41,391 nt of DNA from a virus. The position numbers and the translations under genes are program-made. This document shows, piece by piece, positions 5,027 through 27,085 of the stretch (position 1 is the stretch's first letter; every line of letters starts with the position of its first letter). The notes beneath the pieces were generated by a model that saw only the letters and a list, made by a program, of their open reading frames with translations, ran no database searches and had not been told where the DNA came from. The DNA lies in IMG/VR virus record IMGVR_UViG_3300050821_005480, positions 1 through 41,391 of that record; one strand, 5' to 3'.

Positions 5027-6352
5027 TTATTTACCTCCATTGATATATTTCTGAACCTGACTACCAGATGATTTATGTTTAGAATCCATAGAAATCATTT
5101 TCCCCGCATGATCAGGTAATCCACGTGATAGAAACCCAGAAAGAACGGCATGCTCTTGGCCTAATTGACATTTGATCCCTAATTTTTTTACACCATATTG
5201 AGCAACTTCATTCAAAGTTTTATCAGCATGATCGAAAGTACCAATATGATGAGAAAGTTCAGAAGCCAATTTGTCTCTCTTTGTTATTTCTCTCATTAAA
5301 GTTTTCAAATTAAAAGAATCCATAGCTTGAGCTTTTAATTTCTTTTCAAGAGATTTCAAACGAGAGTCCATACTGTCTTTATCATCTTTATGGTCTTTCA
5401 TTTTATGATCTTTGTGATCCTTCATTTTATGATCTTTTTCTTCTTTAAGATTGTCTTCTGATTCTTCGTCTTCAACTTCTTCTTCTTCGACGATTTCCTC
5501 TTTCTCAACAACTTCTTCTTTGTCTTCCATTTCAGTTGTATCCAATAATTCTCCTTCTTCTTCCCTGACTTCTTTTTTAACAAGTTTAGCGATCATTTTT
5601 TCTAGTCTATCCATCTTTTCAGATAGATTTTCCATTGTTAGTTCGTTATCAGAACCTTCTTTTTTTTCGTACATTTTTGTGAACTCCTTACTGTCGATTG
5701 TAAAAACAAATTGATCTAGAACCGAAACATCAGGTCCTGATCTACCCTCATTTACTAAAGCTAAATGATTACCTCTAATTTTACGCTGTACATAATCATA
5801 TCGTTGACCATCATATACACCGCTCTCTTTCTCATACACACAGTTATATCCTATCGACAAATCCTTTTTATCGTATAAATCTATTTTGTCCTTCATACTT
5901 TCAGAAAATATTTTGATATTGGCCTTTAAATATCCATCATCAAAATAAACATCTTGTCCCACAACGCCTTCCGTTCCTTTCTTTTCTGCTGGTGTATATC
6001 CCTTATTTTCTTGACCCAACATGACATGATCATCAATAAAAGGAATTAATTTAAAAGATTCTATACATTCCTCATTATTTAATTCTTCTTCGGGCCTATA
6101 AACCTGAAATATTTCATCTGGTGGTAAATCTTTACTAATCTGCGCGCCCGAATATGGAAATACACCTACTTTCGAAATTGGATTATCCTTAATTTCTATC
6201 CATCCGTTTAAGTCAATTTCTCTATTAGTATCACTATCCCTTGCTTTGCTATATGCGATAGCAGCAGCTTGTTTTTCTGGATATCCAGAGTTAATCAATT
6301 CACCGATATTTTTTGATATCGTTTTTTCAGATGACCCAGACTTAAGCGGCAT
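5027..6352 (-). CDS. Prohead maturation protease (DUF2213) with scaffold-like C-terminal region
   Basis: The chosen start at 6352 gives 441 residues beginning MPLKSGSSEKTISKNI, a widely conserved N-terminal motif of these proteins. AGGAAG lies 8 nt upstream and the start overlaps the previous stop by 11 nt. The protease domain (about residues 40-235) shows DDHVMLG (His109), DLSIGY (Ser166) and GNHLALVNEGRSG (His196), consistent with the Ser-His-His triad of herpesvirus-type phage proteases. Residues 240-360 are extremely acidic and Lys-rich with repeated KDHKM units and coiled-coil potential, and residues 330-441 are helical. That part is likely the scaffold, cut away during head maturation. 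Confidence 0.85.
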   Translation of the reverse strand: MPLKSGSSEKTISKNIGELINSGYPEKQAAAIAYSKARDSDTNREIDLNGWIEIKDNPISKVGVFPYSGAQISKDLPPDEIFQVYRPEEELNNEECIESFKLIPFIDDHVMLGQENKGYTPAEKKGTEGVVGQDVYFDDGYLKANIKIFSESMKDKIDLYDKKDLSIGYNCVYEKESGVYDGQRYDYVQRKIRGNHLALVNEGRSGPDVSVLDQFVFTIDSKEFTKMYEKKEGSDNELTMENLSEKMDRLEKMIAKLVKKEVREEEGELLDTTEMEDKEEVVEKEEIVEEEEVEDEESEDNLKEEKDHKMKDHKDHKMKDHKDDKDSMDSRLKSLEKKLKAQAMDSFNLKTLMREITKRDKLASELSHHIGTFDHADKTLNEVAQYGVKKLGIKCQLGQEHAVLSGFLSRGLPDHAGKMISMDSKHKSSGSQVQKYINGGK

Positions 6353-7199
6353 TATATTCTTCCTCTTCTCCAAAATCGTAGACCGGTTTCATTGTGCAAC
6401 CACAATTTATTGCCTGTCCCGGTATTCCTCTTAATCCTGTTTTTTTATCAATTATGGGCGGATCATCAAAACTATATTTGTTTCCATCCATTTCAATATG
6501 ATCTTCACGTGGTTTCTGTCCACCACCGCTATGCAACCATATAAACTGGTTAATCCCTGCATTCTTCATCCGTTCTGCATTTACATTGTTATAGACCTTT
6601 CTTGTTTGATCTAACGCAATGTTTTTTGCTCTTCTTAAACTGATTCCTTTATATTTCTGTAATGCCGGTATTAAATTAGTTGTTCCGCTATTTGTCGTTA
6701 TTGATCTCATTACCTGACCTTTCACATCTGACAAATATTCATCTTTTATTGATTTAATCAAATTCACATTTTCAACAACTGAAGCCTTAATAATTTCCTT
6801 TAAAGTCGGACTAATTTTTTTTACATCTAATGTCAAATCATTTCCGAACTTCTGTAAACTTCTACTAAGAGATATACTGCTAGCCTGAACTTGTCTTTTT
6901 ACCATTAACTTTGCAATTAGTTTTGACTTAAAGTTAAACAAAAGACTAAACTTATCTGTTATTTTATTAGTCAATATTCTTGCTTGGCTACTAATACTTT
7001 CGTCTTGCGCAGAGCTGAAATACTGTTCTGCAAAATCACTATCGAACAATTTAAGAACTGATCTCTCAGTCTCATTGATTACTTTCATCATCAACTTCTT
7101 AATATTTCTGACATAATCAGCTTGTTCGCTAACGTTATAACTTAACCTTGTTCCCTGCATTCTTGATTCATTTTTTTTAATTCTTTTTTTACTAGCCAT
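6342..7199 (-). CDS. Minor head protein, SPP1 gp7 / Mu gpF family
   Basis: This 285-residue protein is Lys-rich and helical for its first 190 residues. The C-terminal domain is typical of phage head morphogenesis proteins: KNIALDQTRKVYNNVNAERM, GINQFIWLHSGGGQKPREDH, DGNKYSF, then GIPGQAINCGCTMKPVY with the conserved G-x-x-x-N-C-x-C. Such proteins bind the portal and are packaged in small numbers in the head. It lies between the portal and the protease, the normal place. Confidence 0.85.
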   Translation of the reverse strand: MASKKRIKKNESRMQGTRLSYNVSEQADYVRNIKKLMMKVINETERSVLKLFDSDFAEQYFSSAQDESISSQARILTNKITDKFSLLFNFKSKLIAKLMVKRQVQASSISLSRSLQKFGNDLTLDVKKISPTLKEIIKASVVENVNLIKSIKDEYLSDVKGQVMRSITTNSGTTNLIPALQKYKGISLRRAKNIALDQTRKVYNNVNAERMKNAGINQFIWLHSGGGQKPREDHIEMDGNKYSFDDPPIIDKKTGLRGIPGQAINCGCTMKPVYDFGEEEEYNAA

Positions 7200-8925: not shown

Positions 8926-10528
8926 AGAAACTTCTTCGTTTTCTTTTCGTATTGAATGCTATCATCACAGCATCAGCAAGATTAGGTGATCTAGCGCTAT
9001 CAGGTGCTTTGTCAATAATTATCTTTCCAACATTATTTTGTGAATACGTTGGTTGTGATAACTCAGAAATCAATTTCCTTCTTTCATCAAATCCACTAGA
9101 TATAGAAATAATATCATCAGGATTAAAATCTAATTTCTCAATAACTGCTCTATACGTAACTTCGAATCTTCTTCGTAATTGCCACCATGCTTGTGCTTTA
9201 GCATTAGCAAAAAAATCTGCATTTGTTCTAAACTTCTTAACTTTAATTCCGCGCTCATTCATAGAACTAGAGAATGGATCACCTTCTGGATCATCTACAG
9301 CACCAGAACCACGGAAAGGATTAAACACAAGCTTATTTTGTCTATCTTCGTTGATCTTATTGGCATCTCCTCTCACCCCTGCACCCAATCCGTCAGAGTC
9401 ATACTCTACTTCCTGATATTCTCTTTCATCACACTTAGAGAATACTTTTTGTGTAGTTTTGAAAATGTCACTATCTTTTCCCGACCAAGACTCTACATGT
9501 TCTAATAAAATTCCATGACGAAATGCGATCGCATTTAAATCCTTTCCTTCATCTGCTATATCTACACCAGCACGTCTCGTTCCCGATGGTTTTATTCCTA
9601 AAACCATATGAGCATCAATTGATGCCTGTATCCATTTCGCCGGAATCAATATCCCATCTTTTGATGACGTATAATCTAAGTCCAATTCTTGTGCTATAAT
9701 CACCGGGTCATTGATGACATCACACATCTTGTTATACCAATTAATATCTTTTCGAGGGTCTTCCTGCCATTTAAAACTAAATACGTCAATCTTGTTTTCA
9801 TGTCTCTTATAAGCAAACGGATTATCCATACCAAATGGAGTGGATATGTCGTGTCTGCTATCAGTGTTCTGAGACAATGATGCTTCTACTAACTCAGGTC
9901 TCGCTATAAACGCTGCTTCATCTACAATATAAAAACTAGTCGTACCACCTCGTCCAATATTATCTCCAGCCTCGCCCGTCAAAATTGATCCCATTTCTGG
10001 AATCATAATTCGCATGTGTGGTGCATGTTTTTTTATATCGAATCCACCCCTAAATTCAGGCGGCAGGAAAGATAAAAAACTCCGAGCTTTATAAAACAAA
10101 CACTTAGGATCACCAATCCTGTCAACATATTCTTCTTTCCTCGACCCAAATCCTGCTGTTATCCCTTCCCAAAATAAACATATCGATACCGCTGTTGATA
10201 TGGTCAAACATGACATACCGACTTGTCGAGACTTCTCAGTTAATCCAGGTCTCTTACTCTTCCAGCATTCTATAAACCAATTTACCCATTCTTCTTGCCG
10301 GTCAAATAAAATAAATGGACATAATGCTGGCAATCCACTTGACACATTTTTAGGATCATATGTCATACCCCAATCAGTAATAAATTGAGCAATGTTATGT
10401 TTATAGTACTCTTTCAAATCTACTAAACATGATGGGTCGCTTCTTATTTTTTGTAATTTATCGACCCTATATTCGAATACTTTTACATAATCTGGATTTC
10501 TAAAATCAAACTTAAATGGTAACGGCAT
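8915..10528 (-). CDS. terL: Terminase large subunit
   Basis: This is a 537-residue packaging motor. The ATPase domain has a Walker A-like EKSRQVGMS at about residues 98-106 and a Walker [11 protein letters not shown] at about 198-207 (Asp203, Glu204). The RNase H-like nuclease domain has [12 protein letters not shown] (Asp323), [11 protein letters not shown] (Asp377) and a late [13 protein letters not shown] carrying the last metal-binding Asp. Its ATG overlaps the stop of a 43-residue gene (TAATG), and its end overlaps the portal start by 11 nt. It is separated from the small subunit by a 2.7-kb fibre gene. Confidence 0.95.
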
Positions 10529-22050: not shown

Positions 22051-22126
22051 TGGCTGGCATACGTGGACTCGAACCACGGACATGGTGATTAACAGTCACC
22101 TGCTCTACCAACTGAGCTATATGCCA
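22051..22126 (-). tRNA. tRNA-Asn (GUU)
   Basis: This 76-nt gene has a perfect cloverleaf. The acceptor is TGGCATA/TATGCCA and the D arm GCTC/GAGC. The anticodon stem GGTGA/TCACC carries the 7-nt loop CTGTTAA (anticodon GTT). The T stem is CGTGG/CCACG, with discriminator G and an encoded CCA. It begins 2 nt after the stop of the upstream gene, so it is probably cut from the replication mRNA. Confidence 0.95.
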
Positions 22127-22128
22127 AT

Positions 22129-22491
22129 TTAATTATTGTTGTGTATATCTGGAACACACCCTAATTTTTCATAAGCTGATTGAAATAATTTCTCTACTTC
22201 TTGTACAGTTATATTATGCTCAATCAGTGGCTTAAAGTGTACTGTATAAAATTCATCTGCTTTAAAAGTAATTGGGATATAAAAATAAGTTTCTGAAGAA
22301 ACGCAATCTTGAATATTCGATACTGAATAATACTTTGAAAAATACCATATTTTGAAATGTATAAAATAAAGTTTTATATCATTACTAAAAAAAGTTTTAC
22401 CATATAAAACATTATCACATGTTTTATTTTCAATGCCATGGCAAGTAAACTCTTTATAACCTTTATCTAATAAATCTTGCTTATTTATCAT
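22129..22491 (-). CDS. Unknown protein, 120 residues
   Basis: The start is MINKQDLLDKGYKEFTCHGI, followed by aromatic strands (KLYFIHFKIWYFSKYYSVS). It lies 6 nt after the possible helicase loader and directly before tRNA-Asn. No family is recognised, but its position suggests a replication accessory. Confidence 0.7.
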   Translation of the reverse strand: MINKQDLLDKGYKEFTCHGIENKTCDNVLYGKTFFSNDIKLYFIHFKIWYFSKYYSVSNIQDCVSSETYFYIPITFKADEFYTVHFKPLIEHNITVQEVEKLFQSAYEKLGCVPDIHNNN

Positions 22492-22497
22492 ATCTAC

Positions 22498-23223
22498 CTA
22501 TCTTTTTAAATTTGTGATAAAATTACGGGATTCTGTAATCTCAACTTCCTTAAAAACTGAGGCTAAAGATGATCCTAAACCATACTCTCTATAATCTTTG
22601 TAATAATTCTCATATATTTTCACTTCTGCCCGATGTTCATCATCTAGTGACTCAAGCATCCGGTGTTTTATATTCATATCTCCTTTTAAATATTTATGTA
22701 TAAAAATCTCTGAATCTACATAAGACATGATTTTATTTTTACAAAATTGGAAAACTCCCTTATAACCGTTCCAGTACATTCCGTTTTGTTCTTTGTGCAT
22801 AAAAATATGAAAAGTACATATTGAAACAAAGTTTTTATATTTATTGCTATACTGTGCAACGGGCTCATATTTTTTACAAATCTCTTCTTCAAATTCTAAT
22901 AGATGTAATCCTTTTTTTTTCTTAAATTCAATTTCATAGCATACTTTGGGATTTTTTAATGCTTGTTGTTTTTCAATATTATTTACAAACTGCAAACATT
23001 TGAAGCTTAATTGCTTCGGCGTTGGCATTGAATCTTCTTTTTTGACCCATTCTTCGCAAACTTTAACAAAAACATCGAGGTCACATTGCGGCATTAAATC
23101 TATTAAAGCTTTTATTTTATCAGCAACCCATTCATCACTTACAGAATATGACGTTATTTTATTTAACATCATTTTATATTGATTTATCACCACTATCAAA
23201 CTTTCTTCATCTCCTAACTGCAT
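22498..23223 (-). CDS. Possible replicative helicase loader (P-like)
   Basis: This 241-residue protein directly follows the initiator-like gene, with AAGGAGGATTT before the ATG. The first 80 residues are helical (WVADKIKALIDLMPQCDLDV, then MPTPKQLSFKCLQFVN), resembling the N-terminal part of lambda P-type and related loaders that hand DnaB to the origin. No Walker motif is present, so it is not a DnaC-type ATPase. The assignment is based mainly on gene order (initiator then loader) and should be treated as tentative. Confidence 0.45.
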   Translation of the reverse strand: MQLGDEESLIVVINQYKMMLNKITSYSVSDEWVADKIKALIDLMPQCDLDVFVKVCEEWVKKEDSMPTPKQLSFKCLQFVNNIEKQQALKNPKVCYEIEFKKKKGLHLLEFEEEICKKYEPVAQYSNKYKNFVSICTFHIFMHKEQNGMYWNGYKGVFQFCKNKIMSYVDSEIFIHKYLKGDMNIKHRMLESLDDEHRAEVKIYENYYKDYREYGLGSSLASVFKEVEITESRNFITNLKR

Positions 23224-23258
23224 AAATCCTCCTTTATTTAAGCATTTATATAAACTTT

Positions 23259-23939
23259 TTATTTTTTAATCATTTCCAATATTCTGTCGCTAGAAGTTTT
23301 TACTTTTTGCTGTGGCTTCTCTATAAAAGCTATGTATTCATAGAATCTACATCTTCTAAATAATGTAGAAGGTTTTAAATTATTGCTCATCAACTCATTA
23401 TGTAGCCATTCACTGCATTTCAAATCAATTACCTTTTTACAAATATCTACTGTGATTCCCTTGTCTTTTAAAATAGAAACTATTGGTTTAAAATTAGAAT
23501 TAACAAACTTAAAATTTGTTCCGGTTTTGTCTATTAAATATTGCAACACTTCTTCATGATCTGAAATTTTTGGTTCTTTTATTTTCACATCCTCTTCCAT
23601 GTATTTACATTCTTCGGGAGAGGGTAATTCGCTCTCTATCTCTATATCATTCTCTGCTTGATACTTTTCCCAATCTGATATGTGACCATATATTTCTGAC
23701 CCATCAGTGTATTTCTGAATAATCTTGTAAAAGAACAATTCTTCCAGAACGTCAAACATATCAACAGAATCATACGGCAATACATCTAATTTAATCCGAC
23801 TTGGTTTCCAAACAAATCGGCCTTTTTTATCTGCATAAAGCAATAATCCCATGAATGCTACACGCAGGGGCAATTTGCAATAAATCTCTGCTTCAAAAAG
23901 CACCTCATCTCTTAAAACCTCTATATTTATAGTTCTCAT
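23259..23939 (-). CDS. Replication initiator-like protein with conserved phage C-terminal domain
   Basis: The chosen start is ATG at 23939 (226 residues), because the promoter -10 box lies at 23985-23990 and a TTG at 23999 would be upstream of the transcript start. The N-terminal 100 residues look like a winged helix (LPLRVAFMGLLLYADKKGRF). The C-terminal part, LQYLIDKTGTNFK, DICKKVIDLKCSEWLHNELM and LKPSTLFRRCRFYEYI, matches the Phg_2220_C domain found in phage replication proteins next to DnaD/DnaC-like genes. It probably recruits the loader and host DnaB. Confidence 0.75.
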   Translation of the reverse strand: MRTINIEVLRDEVLFEAEIYCKLPLRVAFMGLLLYADKKGRFVWKPSRIKLDVLPYDSVDMFDVLEELFFYKIIQKYTDGSEIYGHISDWEKYQAENDIEIESELPSPEECKYMEEDVKIKEPKISDHEEVLQYLIDKTGTNFKFVNSNFKPIVSILKDKGITVDICKKVIDLKCSEWLHNELMSNNLKPSTLFRRCRFYEYIAFIEKPQQKVKTSSDRILEMIKK

Positions 23940-23984
23940 ATCAATTATTTCCACTCCCTGGTGTATTAAAATAAGAAGAAATGC

Positions 23985-24013
23985 ATTATCTAATAACAAG
24001 TAATTTATGTCAA
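23985..24013 (-). promoter_or_regulatory. Leftward replication promoter
   Basis: On the minus strand TTGACA (24013-24008), a 17-nt spacer and GATAAT (23990-23985) form a near-consensus promoter. It starts the replication operon about 40 nt before its first ATG. Confidence 0.75.
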
Positions 24014-24048
24014 TCTTTCGCTATAAGTAAAGATAAGTAATAAAAAGA

Positions 24049-24076
24049 TTGCACTTATTTTTTTTTATGTTATTAT
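24049..24076 (+). promoter_or_regulatory. Rightward middle-operon promoter
   Basis: TTGCAC (24049-24054), a 16-nt T-rich spacer and TATTAT (24071-24076) face the tRNA-like gene and the recombination/lysis operon. It is divergent from the replication promoter. Between the two lie tandem ATAAGTAA repeats (from about 24023) that may bind a shared regulator. Confidence 0.6.
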
Positions 24077-24081
24077 GCGCA

Positions 24082-24151
24082 TGAGGTTTCTGTTAAGCGA
24101 ATATTAGCTGTCTGTTGTGCCAGTACTAATATGTAGCTCTCAGAAATCTCA
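24082..24151 (+). ncRNA. Structured leader RNA candidate
   Basis: An 11-nt outer stem (24082-24092 with 24141-24151, one G-T pair) encloses an internal loop. An inner stem ATATTAG/CTAATAT (24101-24107 with 24126-24132) follows, continued by CTG/CAG and closed by a 10-nt loop. It lies just after the promoter and 3 nt before the tRNA-like gene, so it would be the 5' leader removed or retained during tRNA processing. No known RNA family is recognised. Confidence 0.45.
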
Positions 24152-24154
24152 CCC

Positions 24155-24257
24155 GATATGAGTGGCTGAGTGGTTTAAGGCGCCGGTCATGGAATTAGAT
24201 GTGATCGGTAGGAGTTGATAGACAACTCCTCGTGGGTTCGAATCCCATCTCATATCA
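24155..24257 (+). tRNA. Class II tRNA-like gene with an expanded anticodon loop
   Basis: Acceptor ATATGAG/CTCATAT (extendable by G24155-C24256), D arm GCT/GGC with a GAGTGGTTTAA loop, an 8-bp variable stem AGGAGTTG/CAACTCCT and T arm GTGGG-TTCGAAT-CCCAT are all present, as in Leu or Ser tRNAs. The anticodon stem CCGGT/ATCGG holds a 16-nt loop (24188-24203) instead of 7, so no anticodon can be assigned. If the stem is extended to 7 bp the loop is 12 nt. CCA is not encoded. It may be a degenerate tRNA or a tRNA-like RNA with another role. Confidence 0.6.
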
Positions 24258-24283
24258 CTTATAATTGGACAATAAAACAGAAA

Positions 24284-24553
24284 ATGAAATATAAAACTAT
24301 AAATTTTTCAGAATTCACGCATTCTGTTCATAAAACAAATCTACCAGAGACTAAGATATCCGGCGAATTTTTATCAGAATTGTTAGATTGTTATATACAA
24401 AGATGTGAGCACTGGGATTTTAGGGGTGAAAAATCGGACGATATTGTAAGAGATTTTTATAATAAACTTGATTGTCGTTTAACAGTAACATATGAAGATT
24501 TAATGGAAGATCATAAAAACAGACATTATTATAGGTATAAAAATGAACAATAA
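24284..24553 (+). CDS. Unknown protein, 89 residues
   Basis: I chose ATG at 24284, because upstream in-frame starts lie inside the tRNA-like gene. The product (MKYKTINFSEFTHSVHKTNL, ending HYYRYKNEQ) is acidic in the middle. The ribosome site is weak. Its end overlaps the AlpA-like gene by 11 nt. No family is recognised. Confidence 0.6.
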   Translation: MKYKTINFSEFTHSVHKTNLPETKISGEFLSELLDCYIQRCEHWDFRGEKSDDIVRDFYNKLDCRLTVTYEDLMEDHKNRHYYRYKNEQ

Positions 24554-24755
24554 AAACTACTCAGATCAATTCATAAAGCTATCAGACATATTGAATATGC
24601 TTTCTATTAGCAGAAAGACATGGTTTGAATGGATAAAGGACGGTCATGCGCCAGAACCTGTCAAATTTGGCCCTAAAACTTTCAGATGGCATGAGAAGGA
24701 TATTAAAGAATATATAAACAAGAATCATCATTTAGATGATAACAAGGAGTATTGA
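24543..24755 (+). CDS. AlpA-type helix-turn-helix regulator
   Basis: This 70-residue protein has the AlpA/excisionase pattern. FIKLSDILNMLSISRKTWFE is followed by WIKDGHAPEPVKFG and then FRWHEKDIKEYINK. These winged-helix proteins act as transcription regulators or recombination directionality factors. No integrase is visible here, so a regulatory role is more likely, possibly on the divergent promoter pair about 500 bp upstream. Confidence 0.8.
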   Translation: MNNKNYSDQFIKLSDILNMLSISRKTWFEWIKDGHAPEPVKFGPKTFRWHEKDIKEYINKNHHLDDNKEY

Positions 24756-24757
24756 GA

Positions 24758-24964
24758 ATGACAGAGTTTAAAATTAAATCAGAAAATTTAATAAATTTAT
24801 TTATTGTGTTCGATGAACTTTATCAATATTCAGAATATGAAGATGTTTCTTTATCAGCACAATCATTTTTAAAAGAATCTAAAATTGATATAACTTTAGA
24901 CGAACTTTTAAAATTGCATAAAAACAAATTGGAGAAAGATATACTTGATATGGAGAATTTTTAA
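24758..24964 (+). CDS. Unknown protein, 68 residues
   Basis: The ATG at 24758 has AAGGAG 8 nt upstream, overlapping the end of the previous gene. The product is an acidic helical protein (LINLFIVFDELYQYSEYEDV; LDELLKLHKNKLEKDIL). No family is recognised. Confidence 0.65.
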   Translation: MTEFKIKSENLINLFIVFDELYQYSEYEDVSLSAQSFLKESKIDITLDELLKLHKNKLEKDILDMENF

Positions 24965-25014
24965 TAGATTTTTCTATGGTAGCAGTAAAAATAAAATAAA
25001 AAAGGAGAACTAAA

Positions 25015-25671
25015 ATGAGTAATGACACAATCTTAATAATCGGAGAAAGTGGCAGCGGGAAGTCGACTTCTATCAAAAATCTTGATCCGCGTGAAACATT
25101 CATTGTAAATGTGATGGGTAAGTCTTTGCCATTTAAAGGTTACAAGAACATGTACACATCTTTAAATAAAGACACAAACCCTAATGGCAACTACTTCGCG
25201 ACGACAGACTATAGAGTTATTTCACGGTTAATTGATGTTGTGAATAAAAAAGAATCCATAAAGACTTTGATAATAGACGATTTTCAATATCTCATGTGCT
25301 CCGAGTTTATGGATAACGCTATGAATAAAGGGTTTGATAAGTTTTCAATGATGGCAAAAAACGTATGGGATTTAGTTAAAAAACTCGGCGAATGTCGGGA
25401 CGATTTAACATGTATTGTTATTTCACATTCTAACGAAGATAACGGTAAATCAAGATTCAAAACAATCGGTAAAATGTTAGATGAGAAGGTGGTTGTAGAG
25501 GGTTTGTTCACAATCGTATTCCACACCCACGTTTCGGATGGAAGATACCTTTTTGTTACTCAAAACGACGGATTCCATACAGCTAAAAGTCCGCAAGGTA
25601 TGTTCGAATATTCTCATATCAACAATGATCTTAAAGAAGTTCTTGAAAAAGTAAAAGAGTATTACCAATAA
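25015..25671 (+). CDS. RecA-fold ATPase, Sak4-like single-strand annealing protein
   Basis: This 218-residue protein has Walker A GESGSGKS at 10-17, Walker B TLIIDDF (Asp88-Asp89), a conserved ISHSNED sensor region near residue 140 and a late FVTQNDGFHTAKSPQGMF. The size and single RecA core fit the phage Sak4-type recombinases, which anneal single strands with help from SSB. A DUF669/SSB-like gene lies about 900 bp downstream. AAAAGGAGAACTAAA precedes the ATG. A generic AAA-type nucleotide-binding protein is the alternative. Confidence 0.75.
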   Translation: MSNDTILIIGESGSGKSTSIKNLDPRETFIVNVMGKSLPFKGYKNMYTSLNKDTNPNGNYFATTDYRVISRLIDVVNKKESIKTLIIDDFQYLMCSEFMDNAMNKGFDKFSMMAKNVWDLVKKLGECRDDLTCIVISHSNEDNGKSRFKTIGKMLDEKVVVEGLFTIVFHTHVSDGRYLFVTQNDGFHTAKSPQGMFEYSHINNDLKEVLEKVKEYYQ

Positions 25672-25725
25672 TTTAAAAAAAATTTAAAGTTATGATTTAA
25701 TATAAAAAAAGAAGGAATATTATAA

Positions 25726-25983
25726 ATGAAGATACCTAATCAAGAAGATTCTCTATATATTCAAATCGGTGGCGATCATTATAAAACAATGAAAATACAA
25801 CCCGTTGAATATATTCATTTAAATGGAATATCTTTTATAGAGGGTTGCGTAATTAAGTAGGTGAGTCGATGGAAAGAAAAGGGTGGTATAGAGGATATAA
25901 AAAAAGCAAGACATTTTTTAGATATTTTGATCGATATAGAAGAAAATTTACTGAAACAGGAGAAGAGTGATGATAAATATTGA
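25726..25983 (+). pseudogene. DUF3310 protein gene interrupted by an in-frame TAG
   Basis: AAGGAATATTATAA precedes the ATG. The reading is YIQIGGDHYKTMKIQPVEYI, HLNGISFIEGCVIK, then TAG (25858-25860), then VSRWKEKGGIEDIKKARHFL and DILIDIEENL to a TGA at 25981. Known DUF3310 proteins (phage SaV-like nucleotide-metabolism-associated proteins) have a Tyr at the TAG position (VIKYVTR). Without the stop the protein would be a full-length 85-residue member. It is either a nonsense mutation, a base-call error or a site of readthrough. Confidence 0.85.
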
Positions 25984-26056
25984 AATCATTAACATGATAG
26001 AAATTTTAGACTACGCATTACATCCATTAAAACACAATTTAACAACAGGAGAATAG
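25970..26056 (+). CDS. Possible 28-residue peptide
   Basis: GAGAAG lies before ATG 25970, which overlaps the end of the DUF3310 frame. The product reads MINIEIINMIEILDYALHPL with a short polar tail and ends in TAG 2 nt before the next gene. It may only serve translational coupling. Low support. Confidence 0.3.
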   Translation: MINIEIINMIEILDYALHPLKHNLTTGE

Positions 26057-26058
26057 AT

Positions 26059-26349
26059 ATGTCACATCAAATGCTTAATCGTAGATGTTTAATTAGGACT
26101 TACTCCGCAGGGGTTCATATCGGAGATGTTGTATTTGTAGATGGTATGGAAGTTCACCTTAAAAATGCACTTCGATTATGGAAATGGTCTGATGGTGGTT
26201 TATCTTTATCAGCAATAGCTAATAATGGAATTAAAAATGGACGTTTAAATTTTACAGGTGAAGTATATTTGACAAACGCAATAGAAATAATTCCAACAAC
26301 TGAAAAAGCAGAGGATACTTATGTCAAATTTATTGAAGACAAAAAGTGA
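26059..26349 (+). CDS. DUF6948 family protein
   Basis: This 96-residue protein has the family pattern [38 protein letters not shown] and [17 protein letters not shown]. These small phage proteins are common but of unknown function, and they often sit near small Gly-rich proteins, as here. CAGGAGAATAGAT precedes the ATG. Confidence 0.8.
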
Positions 26350-26542
26350 TTGTACTAAAAGCAGACATCATGGTCATTATGGGGATGGGTCTGGGCATGG
26401 GTCTGGGCATGGGGATGGGCATGGGGATGGGCATGGGGATGGGTCTGGGGATGGGGATGGGTCTGGGGATGGGCATGGGCATGGGTCTGGTGATGGGCAT
26501 GGGCATGCGTCTGGTGATGGGCATGGGGATGGGCATGGGTAA
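26321..26542 (+). CDS. Gly-rich dipeptide-repeat protein (His/Asp/Ser-Gly)
   Basis: The ATG at 26321 lies inside the end of the DUF6948 gene, with AGAGGA 5 nt upstream. After a basic start ([20 protein letters not shown]) the remaining 53 residues alternate glycine with His, Asp or Ser ([18 protein letters not shown] and so on). Short phage proteins with alternating Gly and Tyr/Asp/Ser exist, which supports this frame over two others that are also open. The His/Asp content suggests metal binding. The role is unknown. Confidence 0.6.
26381..26539 (+). repeat. Hexanucleotide repeat with a long run of GGG tracts
   Basis: About 26 units of NNNGGG (GATGGG, CATGGG or TCTGGG) run without a break, with only GGT twice and GCG once interrupting the GGG triplets. 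GGG tracts spaced by 3 nt are an ideal G-quadruplex pattern on the coding strand and in the mRNA. It contrasts sharply with the AT-rich surroundings. Confidence 0.9.
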
Positions 26543-26593: not shown

Positions 26594-27085
26594 ATGCCAA
26601 TCAATTGGTCTTTCAATACACAAGAAGAAGCAAATGCAGCACTTCCCCAGAACAATCTAGAAGAAGGCAGATACTGGGGCACTGTTACAAAAGCAGAAAT
26701 TATCATTGGTGGTCGTCCTAAGACGGATGGAACTTACACTAAAGATTTTCTCAAACTGAATATAAAAGTCGAATTAAATCCCGGTGTTGCTTTTGCAGAT
26801 GCTTCTTTGTTTGATTCTGAGCATTTCTTTCACATGAGAAAACATTTCTGGGAATCTGCTAATGAAGAGCATCAGATTAGAAATACAGACGAAAGAGTAT
26901 ATATAGGAAGAAGAGTACAATTCGATGCGAAAGTAGAATCTTACACGGCGAATAATGGGCAAGAAAAGAAAAAACTTGTAATTGTTGATTTTATTGGGAA
27001 TTCTAAAAAACAAGAAGCGTCAATTGAGACAGGTGAACCTAAAATTGATGCAGCCCCATTTATTGAGGATGAAATACCATTCTAA
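26594..27085 (+). CDS. DUF669 / SSB-like single-strand DNA-binding protein
   Basis: This 163-residue protein contains an OB-like region (YWGTVTKAEIIIGG; DFLKLNIKVEL; VYIGRRVQFDAKVESYT; KKKLVIVDFIG). It ends AAPFIEDEIPF, an acidic tip ending in Pro-Phe just like bacterial SSB, where it binds partner proteins. DUF669 proteins occur with phage recombinases. Together with the Sak4-like ATPase it would make a strand-annealing pair. AGGAGAATAGAT precedes the ATG. Confidence 0.8.
   Translation: MPINWSFNTQEEANAALPQNNLEEGRYWGTVTKAEIIIGGRPKTDGTYTKDFLKLNIKVELNPGVAFADASLFDSEHFFHMRKHFWESANEEHQIRNTDERVYIGRRVQFDAKVESYTANNGQEKKKLVIVDFIGNSKKQEASIETGEPKIDAAPFIEDEIPF

Follow-up and report, generated by a model that had tools for sequence, protein, structure and literature searches.

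The closest described systems are the Sm/LSm proteins, some of which (SmB, SmD1 and SmD3) carry Arg-Gly dipeptide tails, and silk fibroin, which is built of Gly-X dipeptides in which X is mostly Ala. The phage gene pair analysed here likewise associates a low-complexity chain of glycine dipeptides with an Sm-like fold, in this case a predicted one. In contrast to the Sm/LSm proteins, the structured partner, a member of the DUF6948 family, has no sequence similarity to them in a Pfam search or in a comparison with two archaeal Sm proteins, the chain is encoded by a separate, overlapping gene, and X is Ser, Tyr, Asp or His instead of Arg. The chain, hereafter X-Gly, shares glycine at every second position with silk fibroin. 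Unlike fibroin, it has Ser, Tyr or Asp and little Ala at X, and is short and phage-encoded. Compared with low-complexity chains of the Gly-Tyr-Gly kind, X-Gly chains stand out by strictly alternating glycines and frequent Asp residues.

The window, which is the whole 41,391-nucleotide stretch of IMG/VR record IMGVR_UViG_3300050821_005480, derives from a tailed phage of about 33% GC. The features relevant to this report are the following.

25015-25671: Sak4-like annealing protein (library match), upstream of the DUF6948 gene.
26059-26349, plus strand: DUF6948 gene, 96 residues, first gene of the cassette, predicted Sm-like barrel (PF22253, E 1.1e-21).
26310-26315, plus strand: likely ribosome-binding site AGAGGA, read from the sequence, inside the DUF6948 gene and about 6 bases 5' of the X-Gly ATG.
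26321-26542, plus strand: X-Gly ORF, 73 residues, starting at an ATG 29 nt within the DUF6948 gene; 85 of 86 DUF6948 loci share the arrangement.
26321-26380, plus strand: leader of the X-Gly ORF, 20 residues, resembling the leaders of relatives (M-N-L-L-K-x-K-x-x-H-H-G).
26381-26539, plus strand: array of 27 six-base units (24 GGG, 2 GGT, 1 GCG), in which X is Asp (10), His (10) or Ser (6).
26594-27085: SSB-like protein, downstream of the X-Gly ORF, with an SSB-type acidic tail at the C-terminal end.

We infer the SSB label from the acidic tail, since the protein matched no family in the libraries searched. Its gene is followed by a tRNA-Tyr and a Gam-like gene. Elsewhere in the window, a tRNA-Asn gene (22051-22126, minus strand) includes 58 nt that are 96.6% identical to a cyanophage tRNA-Asn, and a repeat at 5378-5437, inside the ORF at 5027-6373 (minus strand), encodes a His/Lys/Asp-rich sequence of the KDHKMKDHKD type. 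A sister phage (contig L008), the Sak4 protein of which is 99% identical, has at 9445-9882 a gene for a separate repeat protein rich in His and Lys.

The preliminary description drew attention to an array of GGG runs within a Gly-rich ORF, and the array is confirmed. GGG fills 24 of the 27 glycine slots, two others being GGT and one GCG (Ala), and the window contains 14 matches to the pattern (GGGNNT)4GGG, of which 100 shuffles produced none. Because GGG accounts for 10.7% of the glycine codons in the 40 other ORFs of the window, the occurrence of 24 GGG among the 27 glycine codons of this ORF (P of about 1e-20) is not attributable to chance. Three frames had been described as open across the array; on the plus strand there are only two, X-Gly and a Met/Leu-Gly frame that opens with a GTG at 26346, because TGA codons arising at both GGT sites shut the remaining one. 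Two minus-strand frames are likewise open. None of the X positions is Tyr, a residue almost missing from the array. The X-Gly partner is absent from every protein family library searched, and searches using the array itself as query are nearly useless because of its low complexity. A similarity to TrAA12 (PF22807) was rejected as a composition effect, as it scores 26.3 bits, below the Pfam gathering cut-off of 30.9, and covers the Gly-rich stretch only.

The constant partner of X-Gly, overlooked in the first reading, is the upstream DUF6948 gene. A search for mixed GGG-X arrays among viral contigs retrieved unrelated phages of about 31-57% GC, again with Ser, Tyr, Asp or His at most X positions; in nearly all contigs for which upstream sequence was available, a DUF6948 homologue preceded the array, L208 being an exception. 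A second set was collected blind to the array: loci were chosen by DUF6948 alone, from annotated phages and from a scan of viral contigs, the first DUF6948 alignment having been too divergent for scanning. Of the 86 loci in which 100 nt or more follow the DUF6948 stop codon, 85 have an X-Gly ORF downstream, a count that does not represent independent events, as many loci and contigs are related. The ORF is clear in 83 loci, short in L240, degenerate in L319 and missing in L247. Clear ORFs lie within 110 nt of the DUF6948 stop codon in 80 of 83 cases, and in 75 of 83 the ATG is located upstream of the array and overlaps the DUF6948 gene, in both possible relative frames. In a control of 79 loci selected by Sak4 (782,415 bases), one DUF6948 gene and one X-Gly tract were found, adjacent to each other. 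The PF22253 scan gave no match in 398 genomes of a sample of one phylum or in the control genomes, which indicates little beyond rarity.

Carriers infect both proteobacterial and non-proteobacterial hosts, and include phages of Vibrio, Iodobacter, Pectobacterium and Chlorobiaceae as well as metagenomic contigs. For instance, the pair is present in Vibrio phage IKEMa6-1, Chlorobiaceae phage CV-1-33 (gene 25), Dickeya phage Setonix, Iodobacter phage PhiPLPE, from the annotation of which the X-Gly ORF is missing, and the Pectobacterium phages Sabo, Pappous, Koroua, Taid, Ymer, Abuela and Amona. Records of Neisseria gonorrhoeae and Monoglobus pectinilyticus contain it as well, and a cyanobacterial MAG adds a case. 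The N. gonorrhoeae record (NZ_CP119142.1; L334, 2501-3500) is 2.17 Mb long, is filed as a plasmid and has three DUF6948 places per record; at the one that was read, the X-Gly ORF is Asn-rich. Some pairs sit among recombination genes. In phages of the Pectobacterium type, the pair stands alone between opposite-strand genes, with a CCCCCGAAAGGGGG hairpin and TTT behind it, and by its sequence layout would resemble a small independent transcription unit.

Taken with the frame comparisons given below, the X-Gly ORF and DUF6948 almost certainly form a conserved two-gene phage cassette in which the X-Gly frame is predicted to be translated. As judged from sequence comparison, the X-Gly protein represents a genuine protein type that has hardly been described, with Gly at every other residue, and belongs to a conserved phage module, not to a G-quadruplex element. 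The preliminary description had favoured the His/Asp/Ser frame, and relatives indeed keep this frame.

Three loci depart from the usual layout. L211 carries, at 694-1457 on its minus strand, four tandem X-Gly ORFs (MIDGRG...WDEVIS), the starts of which overlap the preceding stops as ATGA, so that the X-Gly gene itself has been duplicated head to tail. At L208 (9788-10090, minus strand of the locus), an X-Gly ORF lies behind a DUF2201-type gene without DUF6948 upstream. The third, L230 (528-914, minus strand of the locus), is a highly regular array of Ser-Gly and Asp-Gly units from Luteolibacter marinus, and it too has no DUF6948 gene upstream.

Some phages encode X-Gly as the N-terminal arm of a larger protein featuring a conserved domain of about 155 residues (AHGETL ... 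WHH.LTGSC.MGR), as exemplified by L336 (1501-1974, alignment A7; about 155 residues, WHH..LTGSC..GR). Scanning with this C-terminal domain provided a second blind set of 80 loci (L336-L415), 61 of which have upstream sequence; the other 19 contigs begin within the X-Gly ORF. X-Gly in frame and DUF6948 upstream were found in 56 of the 61. Fusion in frame to a conserved domain fixes the X-Gly reading frame. The model of the domain reached a pLDDT of 94 and had no fold match in the PDB with E below 0.3, and no convincing family was found in Pfam, NCBIfam or PHROG. No direct fusion of DUF6948 to X-Gly was observed, so that we infer their physical partnership from gene order.

The upstream protein is a clear DUF6948 member (77.2 bits against PF22253, gathering cut-off 27) and matches no other Pfam family. 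DUF6948 is catalogued without function, no paper naming it was found in the literature searched, and the literature on repeat motifs, DUF6948 and phage Sm-like condensates yielded nothing relevant. The AF2 model, built from 65 sequences, has a pLDDT of 94.3. In Foldseek comparisons, its best 50 PDB matches are all Sm, LSm or SmAP chains or spliceosome entries; the best E value of the Sm/LSm matches is 1.7e-3, and TM scores by query range from 0.47 to 0.60. The model begins with a strand, lacks the Sm-type N-terminal helix before strand 1 and has helices at 50-56 and 82-91. Comparison by hhalign with two archaeal Sm proteins gave a probability of 0.1 and revealed no sequence similarity. DUF6948 is therefore described here as having a predicted Sm/LSm-like fold, resembling by prediction the bent five-stranded barrel of the Sm type, and is not called a member of the Sm family.

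Variation in repeat length, one of the possibilities raised in the preliminary description, was borne out in relatives. In eight Pectobacterium-type phages, X-Gly ORFs encode 53-89 residues and differ in length by multiples of 6 nt. Tract length changes in frame between near-identical phages; Ymer and Amona, for instance, have identical DUF6948 genes and different arrays. An assembly artefact was considered and is unlikely, because the gene type recurs in isolates and a second IMG/VR contig (L007), which matches 22137-26407 at 100%, ends inside the array; the array start has thus been seen twice, and its exact full length comes from one assembly. X-Gly tracts are unusually frequent break points of metagenome contigs, and 8 of 94 DUF6948 contigs stop within 100 nt of the stop codon (L253, L273, L283, L285, L306, L320, L322 and L328). 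The X-Gly gene is probably under-counted in assemblies.

The explanation that we prefer is as follows. The first gene would encode a DUF6948 protein with an Sm-like barrel fold, and the second, starting within the end of the first, a low-complexity chain in which Gly alternates mostly with Ser, Tyr or Asp (Asp, His and Ser in the window). Expansion and contraction in 6-nt steps would homogenise and resize the array DNA while preserving the frame. Translational coupling would ensure that both proteins are made together, the Sm-like protein serving as a structured core, perhaps one that binds nucleic acids, and the X-Gly chain as a flexible, multivalent partner that may cluster the Sm-like protein or its cargo during infection. 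As a whole, from cassette and frame to mechanism, this account has in our judgement about an even chance of being right. The mechanism itself, in which an Sm-fold core would be translated together with a disordered, multivalent partner, is put forward tentatively. A more specific version, in which a phage two-protein ribonucleoprotein module combines an Sm-like RNA-binding core with a separately translated, length-variable X-Gly partner that forms condensates during infection, is speculative and rather unlikely; if true, the module would be to phages what the Sm and FUS low-complexity systems are to eukaryotes. Phase separation by the X-Gly protein is possible, and the version in the window is devoid of the tyrosines that would best support clustering.

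The cassette might instead be an accessory gene pair (moron) directed against host defence, with X-Gly acting as an acidic, flexible counter-defence or DNA-mimic protein. The sister phage L008 lacks both DUF6948 and the array, showing that the cassette comes and goes between phages, as a moron gained and lost between near-identical genomes would; the ability of the pair to stand alone between opposite-strand genes, its rapid variation, and the presence of Asp and of few basic residues in most X-Gly chains agree with such a role. However, Ser and Tyr, and not acidic residues, dominate many arrays, some pairs are located among recombination genes, and neither DUF6948 nor the fusion protein had a PADLOC match, a library of defence systems that tests counter-defence weakly. 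The chance that the cassette acts in this manner is low.

Strict alternation could also build an ordered fibre, Gly occupying one face of a beta-strand and X the opposite face, in the manner of silk fibroin, itself a protein of Gly-X dipeptides. Alternation over 20-50 dipeptides survives synonymous divergence, as expected of such a structure, but expansion of a 6-nt repeat yields alternation as well, and the frequent Asp residues disfavour stacked sheets, X in fibroin being mostly Ala. An ordered fibre is improbable.

The choice of codons bears on whether the protein or the DNA is conserved. The preliminary description had named, as one of several possibilities, a function of the array through RNA structure, blocking translation of the downstream SSB gene. 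More generally, G-quadruplexes formed by the GGG runs in RNA or DNA could stall ribosomes, polymerase or replication and thereby regulate the downstream gene; the 24 runs of at least three G, spaced by 6 nt on the coding strand, speak for this reading, and some relatives also possess GGG arrays. GGG runs are not kept, however: the major glycine codon in the 83 array-blind loci is GGC in 68, GGA in 9, GGG in 4 and GGT in 2, and is GGG in 4 of 75 loci of the C-terminal-domain set. Arrays of GGC, GGA or GGT are incapable of three-tier quadruplexes of this kind. Ordinary RNA folding of the array is no more stable than that of shuffles (z 0.92, with a program setting that does not model quadruplexes), and no homologue of the SSB-like gene adjoins other X-Gly genes. 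A function of the array as nucleic acid is thus highly improbable.

The residues at X, by contrast with the glycine codon, are kept: Ser (35%), Tyr (27%) and Asp (24%) together account for 86% in the array-blind loci, and Tyr, in most relatives, is always found within Gly-Tyr-Gly. Products of the other reading frames shift with the class of glycine codon, and stop codons interrupt the other two plus-strand frames in 2 and 14 of 80 tracts. Within glycine slots, 173 departures from the local majority fall at the third codon position and 80 at the first two, against a neutral expectation of 1:2, in a comparison whose tract borders were placed according to Gly content and whose units, where duplicated, are not independent. 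A neutral or selfish minisatellite, lying by chance behind DUF6948 and only accidentally open, is strongly disfavoured as an explanation of the array, with barely any probability left to it: fast length change and a homogeneous codon within each tract are what repeat expansion predicts, but the array recurs behind one gene with unrelated codons and a preserved X composition, third-position changes are in excess, and many phages fuse it in frame to a conserved domain. Conservation of X composition, lack of conservation of the glycine codon and in-frame fusion together show that the protein is conserved and the G-quadruplex incidental. Selection on the protein maintains the X-Gly chain, and the G-quadruplex array is a by-product of this selection and of repeat expansion.

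A conserved phage module featuring a hypervariable, strictly alternating-Gly protein appears to have been overlooked, because low-complexity filters hide X-Gly and annotations either list the gene as hypothetical or omit it. Since cultivated phages carry the cassette, its role is directly testable. The array illustrates how a striking DNA pattern can arise from protein-level selection and repeat expansion, and the cassette pairs a low-complexity chain with a protein of predicted Sm-like fold, in viruses that infect several bacterial phyla.
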